Below are positions 1,788-38,143 of a stretch of DNA of 64,000 nt, one piece after another. Made by a program: the position numbers and the translations under genes. Each line of letters opens with the position of its first letter. Position 1 is the first letter of the stretch. Source of the stretch: Pseudofrankia coriaricola (lineage in GTDB: Bacteria > Actinomycetota > Actinomycetes > Frankiales > Frankiaceae); contig NZ_MBLO01000235.1 in NCBI RefSeq assembly GCF_001854805.1, positions 1 through 64,000 on the forward strand, in the 5' to 3' direction. A model generated the notes under the pieces. The model did not search any database. It was not told the DNA's origin and saw only the letters and a list, made by a program, of their open reading frames with translations.

Positions 1788-2507
1788 TCAAGAAACTCGG
1801 CTGGGTGATGTTCCGGAAGCCGGCTCCGCGCCTTCCGGATCCCACAGACCTTGCTTCTCCAGCGTGTCGATGAGGCGGTCCGCACCTTCTAGGATGTGGA
1901 CCGCCATCAAGGATCGTGCTCTTCGGGCGTCGCCCCGCCGAAATGCCTCAACGATCATTGGGTGCTCGGCACGGGCACCCGCGACCTGGCCCTCGATGGT
2001 GGCGTAGAATCTGTTGGGCAGGTGCCTGACGACTGCACCCTGAAGCAATGCAAGGCGGTGCGAGTCTGCTGCCAAATTGACCTCGCGGTGGAACTGGTGG
2101 CCAATCTTGGCGATGGCTGCCTTGTCGTCGCTCGCGATGGCACGGTCATAGTCCTCCAGATTTTTTTCGAAAACCCTCAATCGTTCCGGTGTCATGTTCA
2201 TGGCGGCGCGGGCCGCGAGTTCGCTGCCCAGTTCTGCCTGTGCCCAGAACAGATCACGGATGTCCTGTTGGGTGAAGGGTGCTACGACGAAGCCGCGGCG
2301 AGGTTCGAGACGGACGAACCCCTCACTCCTCAGCGTAAGCAGTCCCTCACGCACCGGGGTATTGCTTACGCCCAGAGCCTCGGCGATCCGCTCCATGCGT
2401 AGGAACTCACCTGGGCGAACGGCCCCGGATATGATCAGCTCCCTGACGTACGTCGCGACCTCTTCTGGCAACTGCATCCGCTTGGATCCGCGGCCGCGAG
2501 CAGCCAC
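1788..2507 (-). CDS. GntR family regulator, FCD-type effector domain
   Basis: A 239-residue transcription factor. The N-terminal winged helix includes RIAEALGVSNTPVREGLL, the GntR recognition helix region. The C-terminal all-helical FCD domain carries the usual metal-binding histidines in GHQFHREV, in AEHPMI and near HILEG. FCD domains sense small carboxylates or related metabolites. I chose GTG at 2507 because GAGGGGGG lies just upstream; an internal ATG at 2477 is possible, and the longer upstream frame overlaps the LLM gene. It starts 26 bases after the LLM oxidoreductase gene, so the two are probably co-transcribed. It is a close paralogue of the regulator at 3814-4518. Confidence 0.87.
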   Translation of the reverse strand: MAARGRGSKRMQLPEEVATYVRELIISGAVRPGEFLRMERIAEALGVSNTPVREGLLTLRSEGFVRLEPRRGFVVAPFTQQDIRDLFWAQAELGSELAARAAMNMTPERLRVFEKNLEDYDRAIASDDKAAIAKIGHQFHREVNLAADSHRLALLQGAVVRHLPNRFYATIEGQVAGARAEHPMIVEAFRRGDARRARSLMAVHILEGADRLIDTLEKQGLWDPEGAEPASGTSPSRVS

Positions 2508-2532
2508 TACGCCCCCCTCGGCATCGGCAACA

Positions 2533-3444
2533 TCACAACCAGGTCCGTGCCGCCACCCGCTCGAGCGTCTCGACCGCGTCAGCCAGTCCGTTCGGCTCGT
2601 ACGGCATCTCGAGCACCACTTCGTGGAAGCCGAGCTCGGCGTATCCAGCAAGGTTGTCCTTGTCAATGGGGCCAGACCTCGGGTCCGGACCTGACCCCGG
2701 CTTTGCGACGAGCCGCAACTCGCTGAAGTCTCGGCCGACGTCGTCACAGGCTGCTTTAAGATGGCCGCGGTACCGCTCGAGGGCTTCCAGGCTCTGCTTT
2801 GCGGGGAGCCAGCCATCGCACGACGACGCGATGAGCCGCATCGCCATCCGGCTGAAACCTCCCCACAGGAACTCGACCGGTGCCGGAGCGGTCGGCCTCA
2901 TGAGGAAGGGCTTTTCGGCGGGTTCGTCGCCCTCAACGTGCACGGAGTAGCTACGATTGCCTGCGCTGATCAGCTGCTTGATCTCGGCGATGTCGGATCT
3001 TGCGCGAGTGCCACGTCGCTCGAAGGGCATGCCGACGGCGTCGTACTCGTCGCGGAGCCAGCCTGTCCCGACGCCGAGCGAGATCGGGCGCTCGGTCAGC
3101 CATGACACGCTAGCGATCTGCTTGGCGAGCAGTGCGGGCTTTCGTAGCGTCATGATGATGATGCTCGTCCCGATACGTGCCTCGGGAAGCTGCGCGGCCA
3201 GCCACGTCAGCGTGAGAAGCGGATCCAGCCACGGTGTGTCCGCACGGAAGGGACGCTGACCGTCCTCGGTGTGTGGGTAAGCCGAGGCGCTGGTCTCGGG
3301 TAGCAGCACGTGGTCGCCGACCCAGAACGAGCTGTACCCCATCTCCAGGGCGGCCCGGCACATCCCTAGCAGCTGAGCGGGCGGAAGCCTGTCGCTGGCG
3401 AGCGGGAGTCGGACGCCGACAGGGATGGGTGGACTGCTGACCAT
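2533..3444 (-). CDS. LLM-class F420-dependent oxidoreductase
   Basis: A luciferase-like TIM-barrel oxidoreductase of 303 residues, close to the usual length for TIGR03619-type F420 enzymes. Landmarks are GVRLPLASDRLPP at the N terminus, SFWVGDHVLLP for the first barrel segment, RIGTSIIIMTLRKPALLAKQIAS in the core, and RPISLGVGTGWLRDEYDAVGM, a hallmark of the F420-using group. The flavin-like cofactor F420 would supply hydride to an unknown substrate. The ATG at 3444 has GAGG about seven bases upstream. It is the first gene of a likely operon with the GntR gene, and an AT-rich promoter element lies at 3489-3508. Confidence 0.87.
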   Translation of the reverse strand: MVSSPPIPVGVRLPLASDRLPPAQLLGMCRAALEMGYSSFWVGDHVLLPETSASAYPHTEDGQRPFRADTPWLDPLLTLTWLAAQLPEARIGTSIIIMTLRKPALLAKQIASVSWLTERPISLGVGTGWLRDEYDAVGMPFERRGTRARSDIAEIKQLISAGNRSYSVHVEGDEPAEKPFLMRPTAPAPVEFLWGGFSRMAMRLIASSCDGWLPAKQSLEALERYRGHLKAACDDVGRDFSELRLVAKPGSGPDPRSGPIDKDNLAGYAELGFHEVVLEMPYEPNGLADAVETLERVAARTWL

Positions 3445-3813
3445 GGAAACCTCGGGGGTGTGGCGTGACCGACGCTGCTCAATGCGAGCATCATATATGT
3501 TCTATGTTCAGGGTGCCCGAGACGGCCGGACTGGTCCCCAGCCGGTACACACCATAGACGCGTCGTCCCTGCAGCGGGTGGTCGCTGGCTGGGGAAGGCG
3601 AGGTTCGGTTCGGGCGCGAAGGAGGCCTTGTCAGAGGGGTAGGGGAGGTGCACGGAGGCCGCTTGCGGGAGGGCTCGCTGTCGCTGTCACGGTTTGGGCG
3701 CGTGGACGGCCCGCGCGAGTGTCGCGAGCCTGGTCGCAGACTGGACACCGCTCATCGGCCTGAGCCGTGGGCCTGGTGCCGAGTCGACCGCAGAGTCGAC
3801 ACCGCACCCGGCG
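3445..3813. other. intergenic region carrying the LLM promoter
   Basis: This 369-base stretch separates the LLM oxidoreductase start from the end of the second GntR gene. Apart from the AT-rich element at 3489-3508 I see no conserved protein, repeat or RNA signal. Short frames on both strands look like compositional shadows. Confidence 0.5.
3489..3508. promoter_or_regulatory. AT-rich promoter/operator element, GntR candidate
   Basis: CATCATATATGTTCTATGTT lies about 45 bases upstream of the LLM oxidoreductase start. It shares ATCATA and TTCTAT with the element in front of the alcohol dehydrogenase at 1492-1511. It is probably the promoter and possibly the target of one of the two flanking GntR/FCD regulators. 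Confidence 0.4.
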
Positions 3814-4518
3814 TCATGAGGCCGACGCGTCTTCCGCTTTTTCTGTCCAGAGCCCCTGATCTTCGAGCCTCGCGATGAGGTGCTCGCCACCCTCCAGGAT
3901 GTGCTGCTCCATGAGCAGGCGCGCCTGGCGCGCATCCCGCTTTCGCAGGGCAGTCAGGATCATGGGGTGCTCGAAGTGGGCACCTTTGACCTGGCCCTCG
4001 ATCGTGGTGTAGAACCTGTTCGGCAGGTGTTTCACGACGGAAGCCAGCAAGAGGGCAAGGCGACGTGAGCCTGCAGCGAGGTTGACTTCGCGGTGGAACA
4101 AATGCCCGATTATCGTGATCTGCTCGCTGTCGCTGTTCGCCACTGCCTGGTCGTAGCGCTCAAGATTCGCCGCCAGCCGGTCTAGCTGCTCGTCGGTCCT
4201 ATTCTCGGCGGCGCGTGCGGCGAGTTCGCCGGCGAGTTGGGCCTGGGCCCAAAAGAGATCGCGGATGTCTCGCTGGGTGAACGGCGCCACGACGAACCCG
4301 TGGTGGGGCACCAGACGGACGAACCCCTCGCTTTGCAGGGTTAGGAGCCCTTCACGGACAGGAGTGTTGCTCACGCCTACTGCCTCTGCAATAGGCTCCA
4401 TCCGAAGATACTCACCGGGACGGACAGTCCCAGAGACGATCAGTTCGCGAACGTAGGATGCGACTTCGTCGGGGAGCTGTGTTCGTTTCGTTCTCCGCTC
4501 CGGGGTGATGCCAACCAT
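3814..4518 (-). CDS. GntR family regulator, FCD-type (second copy)
   Basis: A 234-residue GntR/FCD regulator, clearly paralogous to the one at 1788-2507. Both share LPDEV or LPEEV, RELI-SG-VRPGE, GVSNTPVREGLLTL, GFVVAPFTQ-DIRDLFWAQA, FHREVNLAA, HLPNRFY-TIEGQV and EHPMI. The FCD metal-site histidines are conserved (GHLFHREV, FEHPMI, EQHILEG). The two copies flank the LLM oxidoreductase gene, pointing to a local duplication and to control of the alcohol dehydrogenase/LLM cluster. The ATG at 4518 has no strong ribosome site, so the exact start is uncertain. A weak dyad GTAT-N10-ATAC at 4561-4578 lies upstream and could serve autoregulation. Confidence 0.85.
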   Translation of the reverse strand: MVGITPERRTKRTQLPDEVASYVRELIVSGTVRPGEYLRMEPIAEAVGVSNTPVREGLLTLQSEGFVRLVPHHGFVVAPFTQRDIRDLFWAQAQLAGELAARAAENRTDEQLDRLAANLERYDQAVANSDSEQITIIGHLFHREVNLAAGSRRLALLLASVVKHLPNRFYTTIEGQVKGAHFEHPMILTALRKRDARQARLLMEQHILEGGEHLIARLEDQGLWTEKAEDASAS

Positions 4519-7754: not shown

Positions 7755-10700
7755 ATGGTAGAGATTGTCATACCCGGCGTAGTCGTCAAGGAAGAGGTGG
7801 GGCGGGGTTCTTATTCCATTGTGTATCGGGCGGAACGGGCTGGTCGGAACTATGCGGTGAAGGTTCCGGTTCGGGCGGTCGCCTACGATGAGAGCACGGA
7901 TCGTGCTTTTGCTCGCGAAGCGACGATTCTGGCCTGCATGAATCATCCGAACATAGCCCCAGTTCGAGCTGCGGGGCGGACGGCGGACTATCCGTATCTC
8001 ATCCTGGATTTCATCGAGGGTGAGTCGTTGGAGTCGCGGATCCGGGCGGGGCCGCTGGATGTCGCCGAGACCGTGCGGATCGCGCTGAACGTGGCCTCGG
8101 CGCTGTCCGAGGCGCACCGGCGGGGCCTGGTTCATCAAGACGTCAAACCGCCGAACATCCTGATCGGTTCACATGGCGATGCGACGTTGCTGGATTTCGG
8201 CCTGATGGCCCGGGCCGGGGGCCTCTACGGTGACACCGCCGTCGGCACGGTACTCTACAGCGCCCCGGAGCAGACGGGGATGCTGCACCGACAGGTCGAC
8301 GCGCGCGCTGACCTGTACGCTCTGGGCGCGGTTTTATATCACTGCCTGGCTGGTTCGCCACCATTCCAGGCATCCGACACCGCCGAGCTGATGCGCATGC
8401 ACGCGGTCGTGGCGCCCTGTCCCTTGGCCCAGGTGCGCGCCGACATTCCGGAGACGCTCACCACTGTGGTGGCCAGGCTGCTGGCCAAGGACCCGGACGA
8501 TCGGTACCCGTCTGCACGGGACGTCGTCGTCGCCCTCGCCCCGCTCGCGCCACACTGGCCCGAAATGCCGATGCCACCCGCTGGAGCGGGTGGAGCGTGG
8601 GCCACCGGCTGCTTGGTCGGACGTCGACGCGAGCGTGCACTGCTCCGGCGAGCCTGGGCGGAATGTCTCGCGGGGGGATCTGGCGTCGTGACGGTCGCTG
8701 GACAAGCCGGCGCTGGAAAGACGCTCCTTATCCAGGAACTGCTCTCGTCGTCGGGCCTGGTGGCCGGACGCCAGGTGCTGCGTGGTCGGTGCGCCGTGCA
8801 CACCTCCGTTCCGTTCACGCTGTTGCGCGATCTGATCGACAGCTACTTTCATGACCTTCAGTCGGTGCCGGAGCCCGGTCGGCGGCAGTTGTCCGACAGG
8901 ATCGTGGCGGCGGCCGGAGCCGATGCCGGACATCTCGCCCGCCTGCATCCCATGCTCGCCCGCGCGCTCGGAGTGCACACGTCGAGCGTGGAGACGGCGG
9001 TGGGCGAGTCGGCCGCCGATGAGATGCAATTCCGTTCGGCCGTGGTCGGTTTTCTCAGCCGGCTGACAGAGCTGTCCAAAGGAATGATCATCTGGATTGA
9101 CGACGCCCACTGGCTGGGACCGGCGGACCAACAGGTGCTGGAGGATCTCACCGCGTCCATCAACACGCCAGGGCTAATGATCATCAATTCGACCCGGGAT
9201 GCCTCGTTGCGCGTCGCGGCCGGGCTCGCGACGAGTTGGGAAGTCACCCTTGGGCCGTTGGATACCAACGAGGTCACCCAGATAATCGGCTACTACCTCG
9301 GTGAGATCGCCGACGAGGCATTTGCGGACGAGGTCGCCGTCCGATCATCCGGAAATCCGCTGGCCGTGGTCGAGTACATGCGGGCGGTGATCGACGCGGG
9401 TCTGATCCGTCCTGACTGGGGGCGGTTCGTACTGGACCGGGCCAGCCTCGACTCCCTGCCGTTGCCGGTCGCGGTGCTCAATCTGATCCGTCATCGGTTG
9501 GACGGGCTCAGCCCAGTCGCGGCGTCGGTTCTTGGTGCGGCCGCGGTGATCGGCCGGCGTTTCCATCCCGCGCTGCTGGCGGATGCGAGCGCCAGCAGCA
9601 CCGCCGTGGTGGCCAGGGCGACCGCCGAGGCCGAAGCCCATCAGCTGGTCATATCGAGCGGCGGCGGGACGTGGTCGTTCGTGCACGACTGTGTGCACGA
9701 GGCCTTGCTGTCGACCATGAACGAGCAGGCACGGACAACGGTCCACCGGCGCATCGTCGATGTCCTCGAGGCCCCAGGGACAGATGTCCTCGGCGGAGTG
9801 GAGGCAGTGGAGTCATCCCGCCGTCCCTACGAACTCGCCCGGCACGCGGTCGCCGGGGAGGTGGCCCCGGAGCGTCGTTTCCGGCTGGCGGCCGCCGCCG
9901 CAGCGGCAGCGCTCGTCGCGCCGGCGCCCCACGAGGCAGTGGCTTTCTACCGCGCCGCGTCGACAGCGGCGGCTGAGGCCGGCATCGAGCCGGACGCCGA
10001 CTATGAGGAGGGTTTCGCGCTCGCCTGCACCCGCACGGTCCAATCCCTGGACGCTCGGAGACACTTCCTCCGCGCGCTTTGTGAGCAGAGTGATCCACGG
10101 CGGCGGGCGTGGATTTTCGAGGAGCTCGCCTGGGTCGAGTATGGCGAGTTCCACGTCGCCGCCGCGCGGGAGTACGTCCACCGGGGTCTGGCGGAGATCG
10201 GCCGGGGACTACCGGCCAACCCCGGGGCGATGGCGGCGGTCAGTGTGGGCCGGTGGGTGGTCGGCATGGCCTGCCGGTGGCGGTCGACCGGCTTCGGCCG
10301 GGCGGCCGGTGACACGAAGAAGCTTCATGAGATCCGCTGCCGTCTCTACGAGGTCGGTGCCCTGAGCGAATGGTACTGCGGGCGGATGGGGCCGGCGTTG
10401 GCCTTTCTGATGTCGGCTGTCGCACCCAGTAACCGACTTGGCTCGGGAGCGGAGTACCTGCGCGGTCACCTCTGCGCGCACCACATGGCGGCGGAATTCG
10501 GCCGAAGGCGAACCGTGCAGCGTGACATCGGCTGGCTGCACCGGCTCGGGGAAGAGAGCAACGATCCAGCGCTGCAGACAAAGATGTTCTTCTACACGGC
10601 CTCGACGCTGGTGTTCATCGGCCGCAATGTCGAGGGGGAGCGGGCGTTCGCGAGAGCGTTTCGCCGGGGAGCTCGGTTCATCGAGACCGCGCACTTCCTG

Positions 10701-13097
10701 AACTGCTACTCAACCTATGTGCGGAGTCTTGTCGTCCGTGGATGTTTCCAGGAGGCGTGGGATGTCTTCGAGGCCCAGGCGGGGGCAGCCGGAGGTGACC
10801 GCCTCCAGGCCGATTTCGCGATTATGCGGGCGCGGATCGCTAGGATACTCGGCTTCCCACCGGTTAAGCACGCCGGCCTGGCCGCCCTCGACGCCTACCC
10901 GGAGTCCGAACGGTTTCGTCGCTACATGATCTGTCATGACGTCGCCGAGCTTGAGGTGGAAGACGGCGAGTTCGGTCCGGCCTTCGACGCTGTGATCTCC
11001 GCCGGAGACGCTGTCGGTCTTCGTCCTTCTCAGGTACCGAAGTTCTTCCGGTCTTTTTGGATCGCGAAGGCGCGTGGCCGTCTCGAACAGGCGCGGGCCG
11101 CGCCGCCAGGACCGGAGCGGGCACGGCGCCACCGCGCCGCCCGGCAGGCCCTGCGTGCGGCGCGCTGGGCGGCGGCCTATCCGCCGTGTGCGGCCGACCT
11201 GCGGGTCCTACGTGCTGTCGACCGCCAACTCATCGGCGACCACGACGCCGCGCTGGATCTGCTGGACGCCGCGGAGCGGAGAGCGCGCGATCTCGACCTG
11301 CCTCGCGTCCGTTTCGACGCGCTCCTCGAGCGGGCCCGATGTCTGAGTGCGCAGGGCGAGACCGAGCGCGCGGAGACCGAAGCGGACCTCGCCGCCCAGT
11401 TCGCCCGGCAGCACGGCTGGGTCGGCCGGGAACGCAGGGTGCTACACGAGTTCAAAGGCCTCGAGCGTCGAGCGTCTCCTAAGGAACCGGCCGAAGCGTT
11501 GCCAACATCCAGCCGGGATCGACGTCGCCTCGACGCGGTCCTACGGGTCAGTGCCGCGGCTGGCCGGCAGACAGCTCCGGAAGCCGTGGCCACCGTCGCC
11601 CTCGACGAGATCATCAGCATTCTGGGTGCGGACCGGGCCCTGCTGCTGTTCCCCGCCCTGCCCGAAGGCACGCCCGCCTCCGGTCACCTTCCCGACTCGT
11701 CCGGAAGCGAGCCCGATCCCGGCCCGCTGCAGCTCTATGCGAGCCGCACAAGGAATCGCGGCAACGAACAGCACGAATCGGAGCCGCTCGATTGTGAGCT
11801 CACGCAGTTCGCCACGACGGTCGTCGAACACGTCCACGCCGAACAGCGACCGCTGGTGGTGACAGGCACGGATGAGGGGGCCGCCCTCGGCTCGCACAGC
11901 GCCGTCCAGTACGGCCTGCGCAGCATCCTCGCCGCACCGGTCCCGTTCGACGGGCATCGCAGCGGCGTCATATACGTCGACAGCCGCGTCGCCCGAGGCC
12001 TGTTCACCGAGGAGGACGCGCAAATTCTGATCACATTGGCAAAACAGGTCGGACAAGTTCTGCGAACCGCCGAAACCTCCCGGCTACAGGCCGTCATCGC
12101 GGCGGAACGACACCAACGCGAGTTCGCCGAGACCCTACGAGCGGTCACGGTCCAGGCGACGTCGACACTGGACACCCGGGACATCCCCGGCCGCGTGCTC
12201 ACCGCCGCTCGGAGGATCCTTCCCTTCGACGCCGCATGGGTGCTGACCCGCGCCTCTGGCACCATCCGCGTCGACTCCACCCACGGTGACGTCGACGACG
12301 TCGCCGACGCCGACGCCGAACCCGCCATCCCCGAGGGCTCGCCACTGTGGGGAGCCCTCCTCAGCGGACAGATCCTCGCCGCCGACGACAACGCCACTGA
12401 ACTGCCCGGCCAGCGTTACCCCGCGGAGAGTTGGCTGGTCGCGCCTTTACCGCTCCGCCGCAACACCGAGATCATCATCGTCCTGGCCTCCCGCGCACCG
12501 GGCTGCTACGGCGACACACGCATCCAGACCGCTCGCACCGTCATCGACCAGTCAATGATTGCCTACCGAAACGCACAACTGATCGAGGAACTGCGCCACC
12601 ACGCCGCCACCGACCCGCTTACCGGTCTCGCGAACCGGCGGCAATTTTTTGAACAGGCCGAACGAGCCCTTGCTCGCCGTACCGCCGCCGGCCTGCCGAC
12701 GAACGCGGCAATGATCGACATCGACCACTTTAAGCGGGTCAACGACACCTACGGGCACTCCATCGGCGACGAGGTCCTCACCAAGGTCACCCAGCGCATC
12801 CGAACCTCCCTGCGCGCCGACGACATCATCGGCCGGGTCGGCGGCGAGGAGTTCGCAGCCCTGCTGCCCGGATCCCTGCCCGTTGCTGAGATGATCACTG
12901 CACGACTACGGTACACGGTTTCCAACAGCCCGATCGACACCGTGGCAGGGCCACTCACCGTGCGCCTGAGTATCGGCCTGACCCCGCTGTCCCCCCACGA
13001 CAACGGCCTGGCCGACCTTCTTGACCGCGCCGACCGCGCGCTCTACACAGCCAAACGCGCCGGCCGCGACCGCGTCGTCATCGAGACCCGACCGTAG
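7755..13097 (+). CDS. multidomain Ser/Thr kinase - ATPase - GAF - GGDEF signalling protein
   Basis: A 1,780-residue cytoplasmic sensor. Residues 1-270 form a Hanks-type kinase: glycine loop GRGSYSIVYRAE, lysine in YAVKVPV, catalytic loop HQDVKPPNIL (HRD changed to HQD), DFG in LLDFGLMA, APE as SAPEQ. Near 315 a Walker A AGQAGAGKT and near 443 a Walker B MIIWIDDAHW define an AAA/STAND-like ATPase. About 700 helical, TPR-like residues follow, then two GAF-like domains (about 1260-1435 and 1455-1600). The C terminus is a diguanylate cyclase: GGEEF at 1696, with RADD exactly five residues before it, matching the product-inhibition I-site. ATG 7755 has GAGGTG upstream. The protein may link phosphorylation to c-di-GMP synthesis. 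It stands alone between an exporter and an IS relic. Confidence 0.9.
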   Translation: MVEIVIPGVVVKEEVGRGSYSIVYRAERAGRNYAVKVPVRAVAYDESTDRAFAREATILACMNHPNIAPVRAAGRTADYPYLILDFIEGESLESRIRAGPLDVAETVRIALNVASALSEAHRRGLVHQDVKPPNILIGSHGDATLLDFGLMARAGGLYGDTAVGTVLYSAPEQTGMLHRQVDARADLYALGAVLYHCLAGSPPFQASDTAELMRMHAVVAPCPLAQVRADIPETLTTVVARLLAKDPDDRYPSARDVVVALAPLAPHWPEMPMPPAGAGGAWATGCLVGRRRERALLRRAWAECLAGGSGVVTVAGQAGAGKTLLIQELLSSSGLVAGRQVLRGRCAVHTSVPFTLLRDLIDSYFHDLQSVPEPGRRQLSDRIVAAAGADAGHLARLHPMLARALGVHTSSVETAVGESAADEMQFRSAVVGFLSRLTELSKGMIIWIDDAHWLGPADQQVLEDLTASINTPGLMIINSTRDASLRVAAGLATSWEVTLGPLDTNEVTQIIGYYLGEIADEAFADEVAVRSSGNPLAVVEYMRAVIDAGLIRPDWGRFVLDRASLDSLPLPVAVLNLIRHRLDGLSPVAASVLGAAAVIGRRFHPALLADASASSTAVVARATAEAEAHQLVISSGGGTWSFVHDCVHEALLSTMNEQARTTVHRRIVDVLEAPGTDVLGGVEAVESSRRPYELARHAVAGEVAPERRFRLAAAAAAAALVAPAPHEAVAFYRAASTAAAEAGIEPDADYEEGFALACTRTVQSLDARRHFLRALCEQSDPRRRAWIFEELAWVEYGEFHVAAAREYVHRGLAEIGRGLPANPGAMAAVSVGRWVVGMACRWRSTGFGRAAGDTKKLHEIRCRLYEVGALSEWYCGRMGPALAFLMSAVAPSNRLGSGAEYLRGHLCAHHMAAEFGRRRTVQRDIGWLHRLGEESNDPALQTKMFFYTASTLVFIGRNVEGERAFARAFRRGARFIETAHFLNCYSTYVRSLVVRGCFQEAWDVFEAQAGAAGGDRLQADFAIMRARIARILGFPPVKHAGLAALDAYPESERFRRYMICHDVAELEVEDGEFGPAFDAVISAGDAVGLRPSQVPKFFRSFWIAKARGRLEQARAAPPGPERARRHRAARQALRAARWAAAYPPCAADLRVLRAVDRQLIGDHDAALDLLDAAERRARDLDLPRVRFDALLERARCLSAQGETERAETEADLAAQFARQHGWVGRERRVLHEFKGLERRASPKEPAEALPTSSRDRRRLDAVLRVSAAAGRQTAPEAVATVALDEIISILGADRALLLFPALPEGTPASGHLPDSSGSEPDPGPLQLYASRTRNRGNEQHESEPLDCELTQFATTVVEHVHAEQRPLVVTGTDEGAALGSHSAVQYGLRSILAAPVPFDGHRSGVIYVDSRVARGLFTEEDAQILITLAKQVGQVLRTAETSRLQAVIAAERHQREFAETLRAVTVQATSTLDTRDIPGRVLTAARRILPFDAAWVLTRASGTIRVDSTHGDVDDVADADAEPAIPEGSPLWGALLSGQILAADDNATELPGQRYPAESWLVAPLPLRRNTEIIIVLASRAPGCYGDTRIQTARTVIDQSMIAYRNAQLIEELRHHAATDPLTGLANRRQFFEQAERALARRTAAGLPTNAAMIDIDHFKRVNDTYGHSIGDEVLTKVTQRIRTSLRADDIIGRVGGEEFAALLPGSLPVAEMITARLRYTVSNSPIDTVAGPLTVRLSIGLTPLSPHDNGLADLLDRADRALYTAKRAGRDRVVIETRP

Positions 13098-23171: not shown

Positions 23172-24533
23172 GTGGGCTTGATAGAAATCCTCGAATGCCT
23201 GGGCAACACGTCGGTCTCCGGCACCGTCACCCTGCTCGAAGAACTCGACCAGGCCGGCGTCGTGTTCCGCTCGGCGACCGAGCCGTTCGACACCGCGACC
23301 CCGATGGGCCGCATGCTGCTCCAGATGCTCGCGATGTTCGCGCAGTTCGAGCGCGACACGATCATCGACCGGGTCATCGGCGGCATGGAACGCAAAGCCG
23401 CCAAGGGTCTTTGGATGGGCGGCAACCGTCCCTTCGGCTACCAGGTCGACCGCGCCAACTGGAAACTGCTCGTCGACGAGAAGGAAGCGGCCATCGTCCG
23501 CCTGATCTTCAACCTCTACGTCCGCGACCGGCTCGGCACCCGCGCCATCGCCAAGACCCTCAACGAGCGCGGCCACCGCACCACCACCGGCGGCCACTGG
23601 TCCGGCCACCAGGTCATCCGCGTCCTGGACCACCGCGTCTACCTCGGCGAGCTGACTTTCCGCGAGATCACCGTCATCGACACCCACGAACCGATCATCG
23701 ACCAGGCCCTGTTCGCCGAAGCCGAGAAGATCCTCATCATCCGCACCGACGGACACGCCCACCGGGCCGCCAGCGACTCTGACTACTACCTCACCGGCCG
23801 CATGCGCTGCCCACAATGCACCAAGGCGATGCTCGGCTCCAACGCCAAAGGCCGCAACCGCACCTACCGCTACTACACCTGCTTCACCCGGCTGCGCTAC
23901 AGCCGCGACCGCTGCGACGCCCCCCGCCTCGACGCCGACGCCCTCGACCAGGCCGTCCTCACCGCGCTCGCCGGCTTCTACCGCGACCACCACCAGCTCA
24001 TCGCCGACGCCGTCCAGCACGCCCGTCAACGCCACGATGACGCCCACTCCGACCGCGCCGGCGAACTCACCACCGTCCAGACCGACCTGACCCAGACCGA
24101 CCAGGCCATCGACCGCTACCTGTCAGCATTCGAGCGTGGCACCCTCGACGAAGAAACCCTCGCCACCCGACTCGCCGCCCTGCGCATCAAGCAGAAGCAG
24201 CTCCGCCGCCGCCACACCGAACTCACCGCCCAGATCGGCGACGAACCCGTCATGCCCCCACGCGCGACCCTCCGCAAGATCGCGAACCACATCGATACGA
24301 TCATCGAAGTCGGCACCGATCTTCAGCGTAAGGCCCTCGTCGAAGCCCTCATAGACGAAGTCAAGATCCTCGGCCCCGGGCGGCTCCAACCGATCTTCCG
24401 AGTCCCAAGACCCGAACCGACAGAGGCCGCCACAGCCGCCCTACCAGCCACAACACCCTCGAAGGGGACGGTTCGTACAATGCCAAACATGGTGGGGCGG
24501 GTGGGGCTCGAACCCACGACCGGAGGACTGTGA
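23172..24533 (+). pseudogene. large serine recombinase lacking the catalytic N terminus
   Basis: A 453-residue frame from GTG 23172. It contains PFDTATPMGRMLLQMLAMFA then QFERDTIIDRV, the end of the resolvase domain, followed by a Recombinase domain (GNRPFGYQVD; LGTRAIAKTLNERGHRT), a zinc ribbon (MRCPQC...CDAPRLDADAL) and a C-terminal coiled coil. About 80 N-terminal residues, including the catalytic serine and the RVS-DEQ motif, are missing, so strand cleavage should be impossible. The last residues (VGLEPTTGGL) come from reading through an opposite-strand tRNA 3' half at 24490-24540. It closes the mobile-element region. Confidence 0.82.
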
Positions 24534-31558: not shown

Positions 31559-34500
31559 GTGTTCGACGGGGGTCACCACACCACAGGATCCGCTGATCGG
31601 TGGGACTTCTTTGTCTCCTACACCCAGGCGGATCGTGCCTGGGCCGAGTGGATCTCCTGGCAGCTCGAGGCGGCAGGCTTCCGCGTCCATCTCCAAGCAT
31701 GGGACATGGTGGCCGGGACCAACTGGACGCATGCCATGCAGGACGCCATCCGAGACTCAGCCCGCACCCTGGCCGTGTTGTCGGCTGCATACCTCGACTC
31801 GGCCTATGGAACGCAGGAATGGCAGGCAGCCGTCGCTGCGGACCCGGACAGCGCCCGCCGACGGCTGATTCCGGTCCGAATCGAGGACTGCGACCGCCCT
31901 GGTCTGCTCGGGCAGGTTATCTCGTTCGATTTGTTCGGTATGGCCGAGCACCGCGCCCGCGGCGAGCTGCTGATGAGGGTCCGCGAAGTGATCGCGGGCC
32001 GCGCCAAGCCGACCCATGAGCCCGTCTTTCCCGGTGTGTCTGTCTTGTCTGGACCGGGCGTGACCTCGCCGGCCTTCCCCGGCGCCGAGAGCTATCACAG
32101 CGCGTCGACACAGGACCGGCCGGCGGAATTTCAGGCCCTGCTCATTGGCATCGGCTCCTACGAGGACGAACGGCTCCCCGCACTGCCGTGGCTGTCGGGC
32201 ATGCTCGACAGCGCGGCGGAGCGTTTGGAGTCCGTCGGCTACCGCACCGAAATCCACGATCGCTCCCGGTCGGGCGCGAGCGCCGTGAAAGCGGCTGTCC
32301 ACGGTTTTCTTCGCAGCGCCGCGGCCGGCTCCACCCTGCTTCTCCTTCTTGCGGGAAACGCGGTCCATCGCGCTGCGCGGGGCGCGGACGTTGGCCGCGA
32401 CTTCCTTGTTCCTGCGGACGCCACCGTGGGATACCAGCCCTTCTGGGACCTGTGCGTGCCTGTCGACTGGTCCGGACCGCTCGCCCACACCGCAGCCGCT
32501 CGGGTGCTGGTGCTCGTCGACGGCATCACCGAGTACGACGACGTCGTCTGCGGTGCGGTCACGGACCTGGGCTGGGCAACCGGCCGCATCGAGCCCGCGC
32601 CCGGAGTCGACGTCGCTTACGTCTACCGCAGCCGGGCCGCCGGCGGTGGGGGCGACGACGCTCCCGATCCTGCGGCTCGCCCCTCGCTCACGCGCGCGCT
32701 GATCGACGTGCTCGCGACCCGCCCGCTGCCTCGGACACTAGCGGATTTGCACGCGGCGCTCGAAGGCGTCATGGCGAGTCCCGCGCCGGGTTCTGGGGCC
32801 GGTAGCGCATCGGATGGTCGGCTCGCCGTCTTTGACCAGCCGAACGCGCAGGGTAGACCTGCCTCGGGCAGGGACGACGGCGCGGGCACAGATCAGTGCT
32901 GTCTGCTCCGTCCACTGTCACCCTGCGACCCGCTCCGCTTCCTCCCCTTCCCCGCGCTGCCCGACGAAGACGCCGCGGATCCTCCTCCACACGCCTGGAC
33001 TACGGCCGCCGAACACCATCGCGCCTGGGAGCGCACAGCCGACACCCTCGCGACCGCCGCGCTTCGGGCTGCCACCGGCGACCTCGTGGACCGGCTTGGC
33101 CGGGCACACCACACTGCGGCCGAGGTTCTCGCCGGCGATCCTTGGCACGATCCCGATCTCGCCCGTCGGATGGCGCGCCGCGTCGAGTTCCTCATAGGCA
33201 AACTGCCCGCCGGGCCCGAGGAGCTGTCCGCCGCTGAGGCGGCGTTGCTCGTGGTCGGGCCCTACCTGCATCAGACCGTCTGGACGGTTCTCGTCGCCCA
33301 GGCAACGGTCGCTCATCCTGGCTGGACCGATGATCTGACCGGCCGAGCCGAACGCGCCGACTTTGACGCGTTCACGACCGGCCACCCCCGGCTTGTCCGC
33401 CGGATCGAGAGGGCCGGGCTAGCGGGTGACCAGCCCGCGGCCTCGGCCGTCACCTGGTGGCTCGCGCACAAATGGTGCGAGTCTCATGTGACTGCCCGCT
33501 GGGAGAACGTACTACTAGAGCTGCTCCCCGGCGTAACCGCTGAAGGCGGCCAGGAGAGCCTCGCGGCCGAGGTGTTCCGGACGGAACGGCTGGCAGAGAT
33601 CCTTACCGCGCTGCGCGCGACGGCCACGTTCCTGAACCAGTCGGGGCGGGTCGGGGCGCTGCGGGACGTGGTGATGGTCGCTCCGGCGACGAGTGAGGAG
33701 ATGCCGCTACGGGAGCGGCTCGTCGGCTACCTCCTCGCGATCGGGCAGAAGATGGCGCTGGAGCTGGCGGCGCTGCCGGCCGTCCTTGTCGAGCACCTCG
33801 GCGTCGCGGACGCTGTCGACCTGACGGACGTCCAAACGGCGCTGCGGCGCGCTCAGTGGCAGGGCAGAGGCCGCTCCACCCGCGCCCTCGCGGTCGAGTG
33901 CCGCCACCCGGCGCTGCAGGTCGCCCTGGAACGGCACACCGCGGGACTCGACGCCCTCCTCGCGGAGGCCCATCGCGCGACCGCCGAGATCCCGGCGCTT
34001 GCAGGGCTGCCCACCCATGCCACGGCCGATGGCGTCCGCGCCACCGAGATCGATGGCCACCCCAGCTACACTTCCGCCGGCGCGCAGTTCCGCCTCGCGG
34101 AGGACCGGGTGCAGGAACTGCTCATGGGCGAACAGCTCTATGAGAACCGCGCGCTCGCGGTACGCGAGCTTTACCAGAACGCGCTTGACGCCTGCCGCTA
34201 CCGTCGCGCCCGCACCGAGTATCTGGCCAGGACCACCGGCCGGCCGTCTTCCTGGACCGGCCGGATCGACTTCCGGCAGGGGTTTGAGCCCGACGGCACG
34301 CCCTACGTTGAGTGCCGTGACAACGGCATCGGTATGGGCTACCGGGAGATCTCCGACGTCTTCGCCGAAGCCGGTACACGGACCGTCGACCTTCCCGAGG
34401 TCGTCGAGGAGATGGGCCGCTGGGCGGCCTGCGACCCGCCAATCGAGTTCCACCCGAACAGCCGTTTCGGCGTCGGTGTGCTGAGCTATTTCATGATTGC

Positions 34501-37500
34501 CGACGAGATCCGGGTCGAGACGTGCCGCCTGGGCCCCGACGGGCGTCCGGGTGAGCTATTGCGCGTCACGATCGCCGGCCCGGGCAATCTCTTCCGCATC
34601 GAGCCGCTGGGCCCGGGGCGGGAGAGCGGCACCACGGTCAGACTCTATCTGAGCCGGGATCCCAAACGGCCGTCGATCTCGTGCGTGGACATCCTGCGAC
34701 GGATTCTTTGGGTTGCCGAATTCGACACGTATGCCGCCGAGGGCGCGGCGCTCGAAAAATGGCCCGCCGGTCGGCTCGCTCCTTCGGCACCCGTGGGGAC
34801 TCTTGACCCGTTCCAGGAACTACTGCGTCGCATGACGACGCAGATCGTCGCGGCCGGTGGTGGCGTATGGTGGTGCAACGGTGTTGGCGCCATCCTCGCC
34901 GATGGGCTATGGGCCGGCGAGGCTATCTTCGGCGTTGTGCTGGATCTGACCGGTCCTTTGGTCCCAGAGTTGTCGGTCGACCGCAACAAGATCCGAAAAT
35001 TGTTGGACGAACCAGCGGTCGATGTCGTGCTTACGGCCGCACTTACCGTCCTGCGGTCGTCCAATGCATTAGAAGTGACGGTCGAATGGTTGACAGCATT
35101 CGCCTATTCGTTCCCTCTGGTGGCCGATGCCTTGGTCGAATTGATGGCTGCGGATGGCGAATCTTGGGCGGGAGTCGGGAAAGGACGTGTGCCTGTTAGT
35201 CGAAGCGGTCTACTCGCCACGGACAGTGCACTCTGGCTCTTCAATCCCCTTAATCGCCCTGCCGCCCGATCGGGTGTTAGCGCGATCTATCCATTCAGAG
35301 TCCCTGACACCATTTTCTTTTCGCGCCTTGCTATCTGGGCGCACGGCGAACCGGGCGGAGACAGCGAACGCGATCACGGACGTCGCGAACGGGTAGTGCC
35401 AAGCGACCTGGAAGTAATTCTGATTGCGAGTTACCGCAATAAGCTCGCGCCTGTAGTTATAAGATCGGATGTCGGCTTCCTAGCCGGTAGTCTGCGAACG
35501 ACGCCGCAGGCGGTCGGTCGGCGAATTCGTCGACTTGGCTTCCAAGTACCCAGCCTGAAGGGCATGGAAACAGCGGACATCTCCGAGCTTGAAAAGACAG
35601 TATTGAGTAGGGACCTTGACGGTCAATCTCCCTTGCTGGGCTGGAGATGGCGCGACGATGGCGTGAGTCCCGGCCACGTCCTCGCAGCTGCGAGTCGCCT
35701 GATGCTACCGCCCGAGGAGATATGCAATCGTCTCGATCTCCTGGGAGTCGCGGTGTGGCCGCCCCTTGTCGGTCCTGTCGCCGTAGTCCCAATGGACCTC
35801 GTTCTGCAGAGCGCCAAGCTGGACGGACGAGGTCCCTGGCTCTCGCCGGGCAGAGTGAGCCGAGCACATGTGCTGCGATCCGCCCTCTACACAGAACTCA
35901 GCCCGGCCGAGGTCTCCGACCGTTTGCATAGGTTCGGCTATCGGGTGCCAAGAGCTGAGGGCCTGGAAGGCATCGTCCTCGGTGAAGGCGATGCACTCAT
36001 CGTGAGTCGGGACACGTCTGACGGGCTGGGCGAGACCCCGGTTCCTACGAGCTATCTCCGCAGCCTGCTACCTGAGGAGCGGGGATCTCGTAGTCACAAC
36101 GTTGACAGGCTCCGCGAGCTTGGATTTCCGGTCGCGAGAACAATTCGTCTACCGAAAGATCCGTCACCAGATTTTGCGGATCATTTTCCGCAAGTCGGGA
36201 AGAGCCACCCACTGTGGACGATGGGGAGCGCCGTAAATCGGGTTCACCTCCTCGGCCTTGCGGGCGTCACCAAGGTCGCTTATCCGGCGTTGATCGAAAT
36301 GCTGCGCGCGGAAGGCTACACCGTGGCTCGCGTTGCCGAGCCGAGAGGATCTCGTGTCGCGCGGCTCGCCGAGATCAGCTCGTTCAGTCTTGAAAAAATG
36401 TTCGCCGGAGGCAGGTGTGAAATTAATGATTTGCTGTATATGGTTGGTGCGGATGGAATTTCGATAGGCGACGTTCTCGCGCTGTTGGAGGAGACTGGAA
36501 TCGCGTTCCCGGAACTTGGTGGCATGGAGATCACGCACGACGACGGCGTAGTGCTGAGCTCGTCATTTACTGGCTGGGCGGATCTTGCCCACGTGGGAAA
36601 TTTCATTCCCGCAGCGCAGGTACACGCTGCTGCGAATCGCCTGCGTCGACCTCCTGGGGAGGTCGCGTCTCGTTTGCGCCAACTCGGGCTGGCGGCGGCC
36701 GACCCAGCAGGGCTGATGGCATCGCCTATTCGCCCGACCGACATCGTCCTGCTGGCGCGAGACTTCGACGACCAGGACGCTTTTGTTCTCGATGCGCGTG
36801 TGCCTGGCGCGCACGTCCTGCGCGCAGCGGCGCAGTCGGGGCAGGAACCGCGCGCCGCCGCCGGCAGGCTCAGCGAGCTCGGCTTTGACGTCGACGCGGT
36901 GAGGGATACGGAGCTGACCGCGGCGGAGGAGCGCACGGTCGTTGACCTGCTCGATGTAACGAATGATCCCTTGCTCAAGCAGGGCTGGGCGGGGCTCAGT
37001 CGGGCCAGCATCTTAGCGACCGCGTTCCGCGACGCGGCTCGGCGCCAGTCGCGCGGTCCGGCGGAGCTGGCGGCGTGGATCGGTGGGCTGGGAGCAGGCC
37101 TCGCCGTCTACGCAGGAGCGAACTTCCCGGATGAGTTGAGCTTTGACGACATCGACCTCCTGACCTGGGCGCTGGACGGCGAGCCGCCGTGGCTGGCGGA
37201 CGACGACATCGGCCTCGGACACGTCCTGGCTGCGGCCGGGATCACCGGCCGGTCGCCAAGCGACATAGCCAGCCGACTCGGGAGCCTCGGCTTCACCCTC
37301 GCCGAGCTTCCTGCCAAGACGCCGGACGACGTGGACGCCGTCGACGTCGTGCTCCTGAGTAAGCATCTTGACGGGAAGGCGCCCCGCCTGACGGACCCAC
37401 GGGTGCCGTTGGCGCACGTTTACCACGCGGCGTGCGTCCTAGCCTGCGACGTGGCCGAGGTCCGGGAACGGTACGAGCGGCTCGGTCTTGACTTGGTGGG

Positions 37501-38143
37501 AGTGCCGAGGGAACTGGACCGGATGGGGCGTGAGCACGCGACGGTCGTATTCCATGCGATGGACACCGCCGGGCCGGACGCTGACCAGCTCTGTCCAGCC
37601 CAGATCCTGGCTGTGGCCCAGTTTACTGGGTGTGACATCGAGACTGTCCGCACCTCGTTCGCCGACCTCGGTCTGTCCGTGCCGGCCTCGGGCACCCTTC
37701 CCGATTTGCCGGCAAGCGCGCTGACTGCCCGGGACGTCATCCTGCTCAGTTCCCGCCTCGATGGACGGGGCCCTTGGCTGCGCGCGGGCGTCGCGCCGGT
37801 CGCCCACGTCATCGCCGCGGCCGGTTACCTCCGCTGGTCGCCCCGTCGTGTCGTCGACAGGCTGGCTGAGCTTGGCTGCGCCGTGCCCAGTCTGGTCGAC
37901 TCCGCACTCGAAACCTTCGTGGACGGCGTGGACCGCCGGCTCGCCGACCTGCTCATCGATTCGGCCGAGGCATTCGTGGACCGGCCGGTCTCACGCGCCG
38001 AGGTGCTGGCCTCATCGTTCCGGTTCCGTTGGACCCCAGCGCGGATCGCCCAGCGCATGATCGAGCTTGGCTTCGCCGTTCCCTGTGCCAGCTCGTTGCC
38101 GTCCCAGGACGCAGCCGATGAGCACCGGACGGGCGGGAGCTAG
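31559..38143 (+). CDS. TIR - inactive caspase-like - HSP90-type ATPase - wHTH-repeat protein
   Basis: A 2,194-residue single-chain protein. Residues 14-150: TIR domain (WDFFVSYTQADRAWAEWISW; conserved NADase-type glutamate E87). Residues about 190-345: caspase-like fold (FQALLIGIGSYEDERLPAL, FLVPADA, VPVDW) with the histidine replaced by N267 and the cysteine by I323. About 450-830: helical region, perhaps an inactive HD-type domain. About 840-1150: HSP90/GHKL ATPase with N box ELYQNALDA (E870, N874), DNGIGM at 921, FGVG at 970 and LSVDRNKIRK near 1139. About 1280-2185: about 14 repeats of 50-70 residues with LDGRGPWL, AHVLRAA and RL-ELGF-VP, like small winged helices. GTG 31559; no ribosome site. 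Probably an NAD-depleting conflict effector gated by an HSP90-like switch; not demonstrated. Confidence 0.85.
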   Translation: MFDGGHHTTGSADRWDFFVSYTQADRAWAEWISWQLEAAGFRVHLQAWDMVAGTNWTHAMQDAIRDSARTLAVLSAAYLDSAYGTQEWQAAVAADPDSARRRLIPVRIEDCDRPGLLGQVISFDLFGMAEHRARGELLMRVREVIAGRAKPTHEPVFPGVSVLSGPGVTSPAFPGAESYHSASTQDRPAEFQALLIGIGSYEDERLPALPWLSGMLDSAAERLESVGYRTEIHDRSRSGASAVKAAVHGFLRSAAAGSTLLLLLAGNAVHRAARGADVGRDFLVPADATVGYQPFWDLCVPVDWSGPLAHTAAARVLVLVDGITEYDDVVCGAVTDLGWATGRIEPAPGVDVAYVYRSRAAGGGGDDAPDPAARPSLTRALIDVLATRPLPRTLADLHAALEGVMASPAPGSGAGSASDGRLAVFDQPNAQGRPASGRDDGAGTDQCCLLRPLSPCDPLRFLPFPALPDEDAADPPPHAWTTAAEHHRAWERTADTLATAALRAATGDLVDRLGRAHHTAAEVLAGDPWHDPDLARRMARRVEFLIGKLPAGPEELSAAEAALLVVGPYLHQTVWTVLVAQATVAHPGWTDDLTGRAERADFDAFTTGHPRLVRRIERAGLAGDQPAASAVTWWLAHKWCESHVTARWENVLLELLPGVTAEGGQESLAAEVFRTERLAEILTALRATATFLNQSGRVGALRDVVMVAPATSEEMPLRERLVGYLLAIGQKMALELAALPAVLVEHLGVADAVDLTDVQTALRRAQWQGRGRSTRALAVECRHPALQVALERHTAGLDALLAEAHRATAEIPALAGLPTHATADGVRATEIDGHPSYTSAGAQFRLAEDRVQELLMGEQLYENRALAVRELYQNALDACRYRRARTEYLARTTGRPSSWTGRIDFRQGFEPDGTPYVECRDNGIGMGYREISDVFAEAGTRTVDLPEVVEEMGRWAACDPPIEFHPNSRFGVGVLSYFMIADEIRVETCRLGPDGRPGELLRVTIAGPGNLFRIEPLGPGRESGTTVRLYLSRDPKRPSISCVDILRRILWVAEFDTYAAEGAALEKWPAGRLAPSAPVGTLDPFQELLRRMTTQIVAAGGGVWWCNGVGAILADGLWAGEAIFGVVLDLTGPLVPELSVDRNKIRKLLDEPAVDVVLTAALTVLRSSNALEVTVEWLTAFAYSFPLVADALVELMAADGESWAGVGKGRVPVSRSGLLATDSALWLFNPLNRPAARSGVSAIYPFRVPDTIFFSRLAIWAHGEPGGDSERDHGRRERVVPSDLEVILIASYRNKLAPVVIRSDVGFLAGSLRTTPQAVGRRIRRLGFQVPSLKGMETADISELEKTVLSRDLDGQSPLLGWRWRDDGVSPGHVLAAASRLMLPPEEICNRLDLLGVAVWPPLVGPVAVVPMDLVLQSAKLDGRGPWLSPGRVSRAHVLRSALYTELSPAEVSDRLHRFGYRVPRAEGLEGIVLGEGDALIVSRDTSDGLGETPVPTSYLRSLLPEERGSRSHNVDRLRELGFPVARTIRLPKDPSPDFADHFPQVGKSHPLWTMGSAVNRVHLLGLAGVTKVAYPALIEMLRAEGYTVARVAEPRGSRVARLAEISSFSLEKMFAGGRCEINDLLYMVGADGISIGDVLALLEETGIAFPELGGMEITHDDGVVLSSSFTGWADLAHVGNFIPAAQVHAAANRLRRPPGEVASRLRQLGLAAADPAGLMASPIRPTDIVLLARDFDDQDAFVLDARVPGAHVLRAAAQSGQEPRAAAGRLSELGFDVDAVRDTELTAAEERTVVDLLDVTNDPLLKQGWAGLSRASILATAFRDAARRQSRGPAELAAWIGGLGAGLAVYAGANFPDELSFDDIDLLTWALDGEPPWLADDDIGLGHVLAAAGITGRSPSDIASRLGSLGFTLAELPAKTPDDVDAVDVVLLSKHLDGKAPRLTDPRVPLAHVYHAACVLACDVAEVRERYERLGLDLVGVPRELDRMGREHATVVFHAMDTAGPDADQLCPAQILAVAQFTGCDIETVRTSFADLGLSVPASGTLPDLPASALTARDVILLSSRLDGRGPWLRAGVAPVAHVIAAAGYLRWSPRRVVDRLAELGCAVPSLVDSALETFVDGVDRRLADLLIDSAEAFVDRPVSRAEVLASSFRFRWTPARIAQRMIELGFAVPCASSLPSQDAADEHRTGGS

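Follow-up and report, generated by a model that had tools for sequence, protein, structure and literature searches.

A Pseudofrankia protein joining a Ser/Thr kinase, a putative STAND ATPase, helical repeats and a GAF pair to a predicted diguanylate cyclase

The window analyzed here is a stretch of 64,000 nucleotides from Pseudofrankia coriaricola (contig NZ_MBLO01000235.1, positions 1 to 64,000), the source genome of which comprises 11.2 Mb. Between positions 7755 and 13097 of the plus strand, we found a single unbroken reading frame of 1780 residues. Its ATG start codon is preceded by a GAGG ribosome-binding-like site about 9 bases upstream, and the start region is kept among relatives. A preliminary description of this DNA had read the protein as a Hanks-type kinase, an ATPase with Walker A and B motifs, long helical repeats, two GAF-like domains and a seemingly active GGEEF cyclase with a correctly spaced RxxD site. 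When the complete chain was searched with Pfam and modeled with AlphaFold2, this domain order proved to be correct, and the evidence for the individual parts is given below. The features of the gene are as follows:

7755..13097, plus strand: whole gene, 1780 aa (ATG, upstream GAGG)
7776..8540, plus strand: Hanks-type Ser/Thr kinase domain, residues 8-262 (Pfam, motifs, PknB-like fold)
8610..9194, plus strand: AAA_16 nucleotide-binding domain, residues 286-480, with Walker A at 316-323 and Walker B at 444-450 (Pfam, motifs)
9195..9794, plus strand: region of helices and winged-helix-like elements, as would be expected for a STAND NOD, residues 481-680 (AlphaFold2 secondary structure)
9795..11474, plus strand: TPR-like helical repeat superhelix, residues 681-1240 (AlphaFold2, pLDDT about 90)
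11532..12074, plus strand: GAF1, residues 1260-1440 (Pfam, alignment)
12009..12164, plus strand: long helix joining GAF1 to GAF2, residues 1419-1470 (AlphaFold2)
12165..12512, plus strand: GAF2, residues about 1471-1586, weak by sequence (second Pfam stretch, AlphaFold2, Foldseek)
12513..12605, plus strand: helix joining GAF2 to GGDEF, residues 1587-1617 (AlphaFold2)
12585..13082, plus strand: GGDEF diguanylate cyclase domain, residues 1611-1776 (Pfam, TM 0.88 to 3ign and 4zmm)
12813..12824, plus strand: RADD motif of the inhibitory site (I-site), residues 1687-1690, with five residues between it and GGEEF
12840..12854, plus strand: GGEEF active-site motif, residues 1696-1700

An MFS transporter encoded on the same strand precedes the gene, and a sugar-type ABC transporter on the opposite strand follows it. 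When the orthologous loci were compared, no common neighboring gene and no conserved operon or partner was found; thus, the gene appears to stand alone and its context does not name a pathway. Matches to antisense open reading frames merely mirror the conserved gene. A plasmid origin was considered and rejected, since a search for similar plasmid DNA retrieved none. Elsewhere in the window, a 2194-aa open reading frame (31559-38143, plus strand) combines TIR_2, iHD-CE and HD-CE with eight wHTH-HSP90_Na-assoc stretches, a set of domains as in conflict or defence proteins. A large serine recombinase (23172-24533, plus strand; Resolvase, Recombinase, zinc ribbon) may be truncated because its N-terminal resolvase match begins at profile position 79 of 145. 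On the minus strand (1788-4518), two GntR/FCD regulators flank a luciferase-like monooxygenase frame, and here the long frame 1788-2816 overlaps 2533-3444.

The kinase domain was matched by the Pkinase profile over residues 11-251 (5.5e-41, Pfam), and the motifs AVK, HQDVKPPN, DFG and APE can all be read from the sequence. Thus, the protein carries the VAIK lysine, HxD, the lysine and asparagine of the catalytic loop, DFG and APE, as expected for a Hanks-type enzyme. In structure comparisons, the modeled domain came out close to PknB (Z 25, 2.7 A over 245 residues), and kinases took up the match list of the N-terminal model. Since the catalytic loop reads HQD in place of HRD, the enzyme belongs to the non-RD class, a feature that the preliminary description did not contain. 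Kinases of this class are often independent of activation-loop phosphorylation. Among the domains of the protein, the kinase is the most conserved one (75% to the single-contig genome G012).

The ATPase domain follows with an AAA_16 match (residues 287-477, 7e-20, Pfam), a Walker A motif reading GQAGAGKT and a Walker B motif reading IIWIDD. The secondary structure that AlphaFold2 predicted behind the nucleotide-binding domain fits a helical domain, a winged-helix domain and then a repeat arm. When a profile of the ATPase region was compared with the PDB, it gave matches only of Walker A length (ABC transporters and F1-ATPase), and for this reason the assignment leans on Pfam and on predicted secondary structure. 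Neither this profile nor the fold comparison of the N-terminal model retrieved a solved STAND protein. On this basis, and by comparison with MalT and PknK (PMC4381067), we infer that the ATPase is probably a member of the STAND class. For the stretch between AAA_16 and GAF, Pfam returned neither a TPR call nor another family name. Here, the long helical repeats of the preliminary description correspond to about 30 successive helices (residues about 690-1235), which were modeled with a pLDDT near 90 from ten aligned sequences.

Of the two GAF-like domains, GAF1 was identified by Pfam (residues 1275-1436, 4e-15) and holds a highly conserved block, VTGT(D/A)xGA.LGS.SAV..GLRSIL.AP, in the alignment. 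It was modeled poorly, with a pLDDT mostly below 60, and therefore no ligand can be named. GAF2 corresponds in sequence to a second, weak Pfam stretch, and it was modeled between two long helices adjoining the GGDEF domain. The cyclase domain gave a strong match (residues 1617-1773, 7e-42, 143 bits, Pfam) and reads RADD-x5-GGEEF, which combines the GG(D/E)EF signature with the optional RxxD motif at the proper distance. The isolated fold compared with solved GGDEF domains at TM-scores of 0.80-0.88. From these data, the cyclase is predicted to be active, as had been supposed. In Foldseek comparisons, the C-terminal half matched the GAF-type cyclases IsPadC (5llw) and DcsBis (4zmu), but whole-chain TM-scores were low because the relative placement of the domains differs. 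When codons were compared with four relatives, dN/dS amounted to 0.15-0.28 for the kinase and to 0.33-0.50 for the GGDEF domain, and thus both ends of the protein are under purifying selection, as are all of its modules.

To define the distribution of the family, we searched other genomes for the same architecture, as the preliminary description had proposed for actinobacteria. The layout was recovered in 10 of 34 other Frankiaceae (11 of 35 including the source) and in at least two genomes further away, one of which carries it on a single contig of 5.6 Mb. It was absent from the seven other genomes of the source's own genus that were sampled, and in a sample of 296 genomes of the phylum a match was obtained in the source genome and one other only. 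A scan of named genomes identified orthologues in Frankia gtarii, F. tisae, F. torreyi, F. canadensis, Frankia sp. QA3, AiPs1 and AiPa1 and in Parafrankia EUN1f, as well as a 33%-identical copy in an Acidimicrobiaceae bin. In the latter, unknown bases interrupt GG(D/E)EF, and its active site was therefore left out of the count. GGEEF was kept in all 13 family members with a readable site. The kinase-ATPase parts of the family form one clade (99/99 support).

The source genome itself contains a second full-length copy (73% identical) on contig C71. This copy also bears on the suspicion, raised in the preliminary description, that the apparent fusion might be an artefact of assembly joining two genes. 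The source genome is a draft of 280 contigs, and no point in favor of such an artefact was found. The same full-length layout recurs on C71 and in the single-contig genomes G012, G024 and G266; since homologues thus occur on other contigs and in genomes of one contig each, misassembly is contradicted and we consider its probability negligible.

Several family members carry altered kinase motifs. In the copy on C71, the glycine loop is lost and reads ARSSYS, and in the homologue L036 the catalytic loop is HQDVTPTN; both proteins keep GGEEF. The homologue on the 5.6-Mb contig (G266, L078:1326-6935) has HRD but DVG for DFG, and its Walker A motif is altered to GDPGSGRNT. The RxxD motif is lost in L036 (RGEE) and in L078 (GPGD, no I-site arginine).

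In addition, we detected in the source genome eight further proteins of about 1650 aa, which combine a kinase-like domain, AAA_16, GAF and GGEEF:

L020:10787-15748 and contigs C68, C10, C258, C191, C267, C124 and C39: eight HstK-like proteins

The label HstK-like is presumptive and follows the general layout of these proteins. Because the catalytic-loop lysine is replaced by N or S (e.g., HRDINPAN) and DFG by DFA or DFS, these proteins look like pseudokinases, while GGEEF is intact in 8 of 8. In the kinase-ATPase tree, they form a clade of their own (100/100) apart from the query. When a common origin of the GGDEF domains in the two scaffold types was considered, the GGDEF tree likewise kept the eight paralogues apart and joined them to another GGDEF of the genome (97/88), but the deep branches, on which that question depends, are weak. 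Of 35 Frankiaceae genomes, 17 carry this second set, with a maximum of eight copies per genome, and thus a GGDEF ending of kinase-ATPase-GAF proteins is common in this family of bacteria and not exceptional. The statement of the preliminary description that related proteins usually end in a histidine kinase or another output therefore needs to be restricted. For cyanobacterial HstK-type proteins (PMC2176072) it is correct, as it is for two relatives that we detected, but not for Frankiaceae, where all readable family members and the eight paralogues end in GGDEF. Another gene of the source genome (L028:1443-5399, contig C206) encodes a kinase with an HQDVKPAN loop followed by WD40 repeats.

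Since decayed kinase motifs sit beside intact GGEEF motifs, kinase activity is perhaps dispensable in some members. Judged from these motifs, the cyclase is the constant output of the family. This bears on how the query should be read. We give a probability of roughly one half to the reading that the query works in the cytoplasm as a diguanylate cyclase of the STAND type, which integrates signals and in which the kinase acts as modulator or second output. A stronger version of the optional-kinase argument would make the kinase domain a regulatory, largely non-catalytic module for binding nucleotides or partners and c-di-GMP the sole real output. The altered loops of L036, C71 and L078 and the replaced residues in all eight paralogues point in this direction, but the query itself keeps every kinase residue, and its kinase is the best conserved domain with the low dN/dS given above. 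We regard this explanation as rather unlikely for the query.

Alternatively, the two ends might work in parallel, with a PknK-like kinase acting on separate substrates and an independently regulated cyclase, so that they share only oligomerisation. PknK is a STAND Ser/Thr kinase (PMC4381067), and many kinase-ATPase relatives of about 1200 aa lack a C-terminal output domain, which fits such an arrangement. Against it, the cyclase is kept by every readable member in Frankiaceae and in more distant genomes, and because of this constancy a coupling of kinase and cyclase has probably been selected; we rate parallel outputs as unlikely. GGDEF domains that have no enzymatic activity are frequently used as c-di-GMP effectors (PMC9239204), and the C-terminal domain of the query might likewise be an inactive receptor. 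With GGEEF and RxxD intact and a fold close to that of active cyclases, this would be very surprising.

For the preferred reading of a signal-integrating cyclase, the following sequence of events can be envisaged. At rest, ADP would keep the STAND nucleotide-binding module shut. Binding of a ligand or partner by the TPR-like arm and of further ligands by the GAF pair would jointly open the module, and ATP-bound protomers would then oligomerise. The GAF pair and the coiled coils would bring two GGDEF domains together, and c-di-GMP would be synthesized until feedback at the RxxD site sets in. Targets of the clustered kinase domains might be the platform itself (in trans) or substrates close by, and their phosphorylation would tune or extend the response. 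The c-di-GMP formed would in turn affect regulators of development, among them BldD; c-di-GMP controls development in sporulating actinomycetes, and the c-di-GMP-dependent developmental regulator BldD has been reported in Frankia (PMC4151990). One may go further and suppose that, inside a STAND oligomer of the NLR-like kind, autophosphorylation of the kinase controls the cyclase of its own chain. The protein would then be a one-protein relay from phosphorylation to c-di-GMP, diversified in Frankiaceae alongside pseudokinase-bearing STAND-GAF-GGDEF paralogues, and this proposal strikes us as rather improbable.

The preliminary description supposed a direct link between protein phosphorylation and c-di-GMP. 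That Ser/Thr phosphorylation is wired directly to the synthesis of c-di-GMP has been proposed from architecture alone (PMC1262709), and our search of open-licence papers retrieved neither a test of such wiring nor experiments on a kinase-GGDEF fusion. The present family is soluble and contains both intact kinases and naturally decayed ones, which would make this question testable. Moreover, symbiotic or developmental cues may be linked to c-di-GMP through the numerous kinase-like STAND cyclases of Frankiaceae.

When we compared the protein with known systems, a close precedent was found in Clostridium thermocellum, for which Krupa and Srinivasan (2005, PMC1262709) described a protein of 1826 aa (gi 23020879) with a Ser/Thr kinase, six TPR and a C-terminal GGDEF domain and proposed a role of such kinases in c-di-GMP production. 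Compared by description and not by sequence, both proteins have an N-terminal Ser/Thr kinase, helical repeats, a C-terminal GGDEF domain and nearly equal length, but for the clostridial protein, which comes from another phylum, neither GAF nor AAA_16 was reported. Thus, the fusion of Ser/Thr kinase, TPR and GGDEF was already published in 2005 and the GAF-bearing Frankiaceae version is a variation of it.

STAND proteins such as MalT and PknK consist of NOD, arm, repeat sensor and effector and are activated by inducer-dependent assembly (PMC4381067), and a kinase joined to a MalT-like protein in M. tuberculosis is included in PMC1262709. PknK of Mycobacterium tuberculosis shares with the query a kinase joined to a STAND ATPase, again when judged by description and not by sequence. 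To our knowledge, PknK has neither a GAF pair nor a cyclase output. The dual kinases HstK and cbSTKIII of cyanobacteria also unite kinase, GAF and a signaling output on one chain (PMC2176072, PMC1262709). Their C-terminal output is a histidine kinase (PMC2176072), whereas Pfam found GGDEF instead of HisKA/HATPase at the C terminus of the query.

The idea of a kinase-ATPase-cyclase chain recurs in the TOMM system kinase/cyclase fusion (TIGR03903), but the cyclase of the query is a GGDEF domain, and membership was rejected because its ATPase region scored 192 bits, far below the cut-off of 705.75 bits. IsPadC and DcsBis, the best structural matches of the C-terminal half, share with it the succession of GAF-type sensor, coiled coil and GGDEF, but they have no kinase, STAND or TPR part, and IsPadC is a phytochrome-activated photoreceptor.
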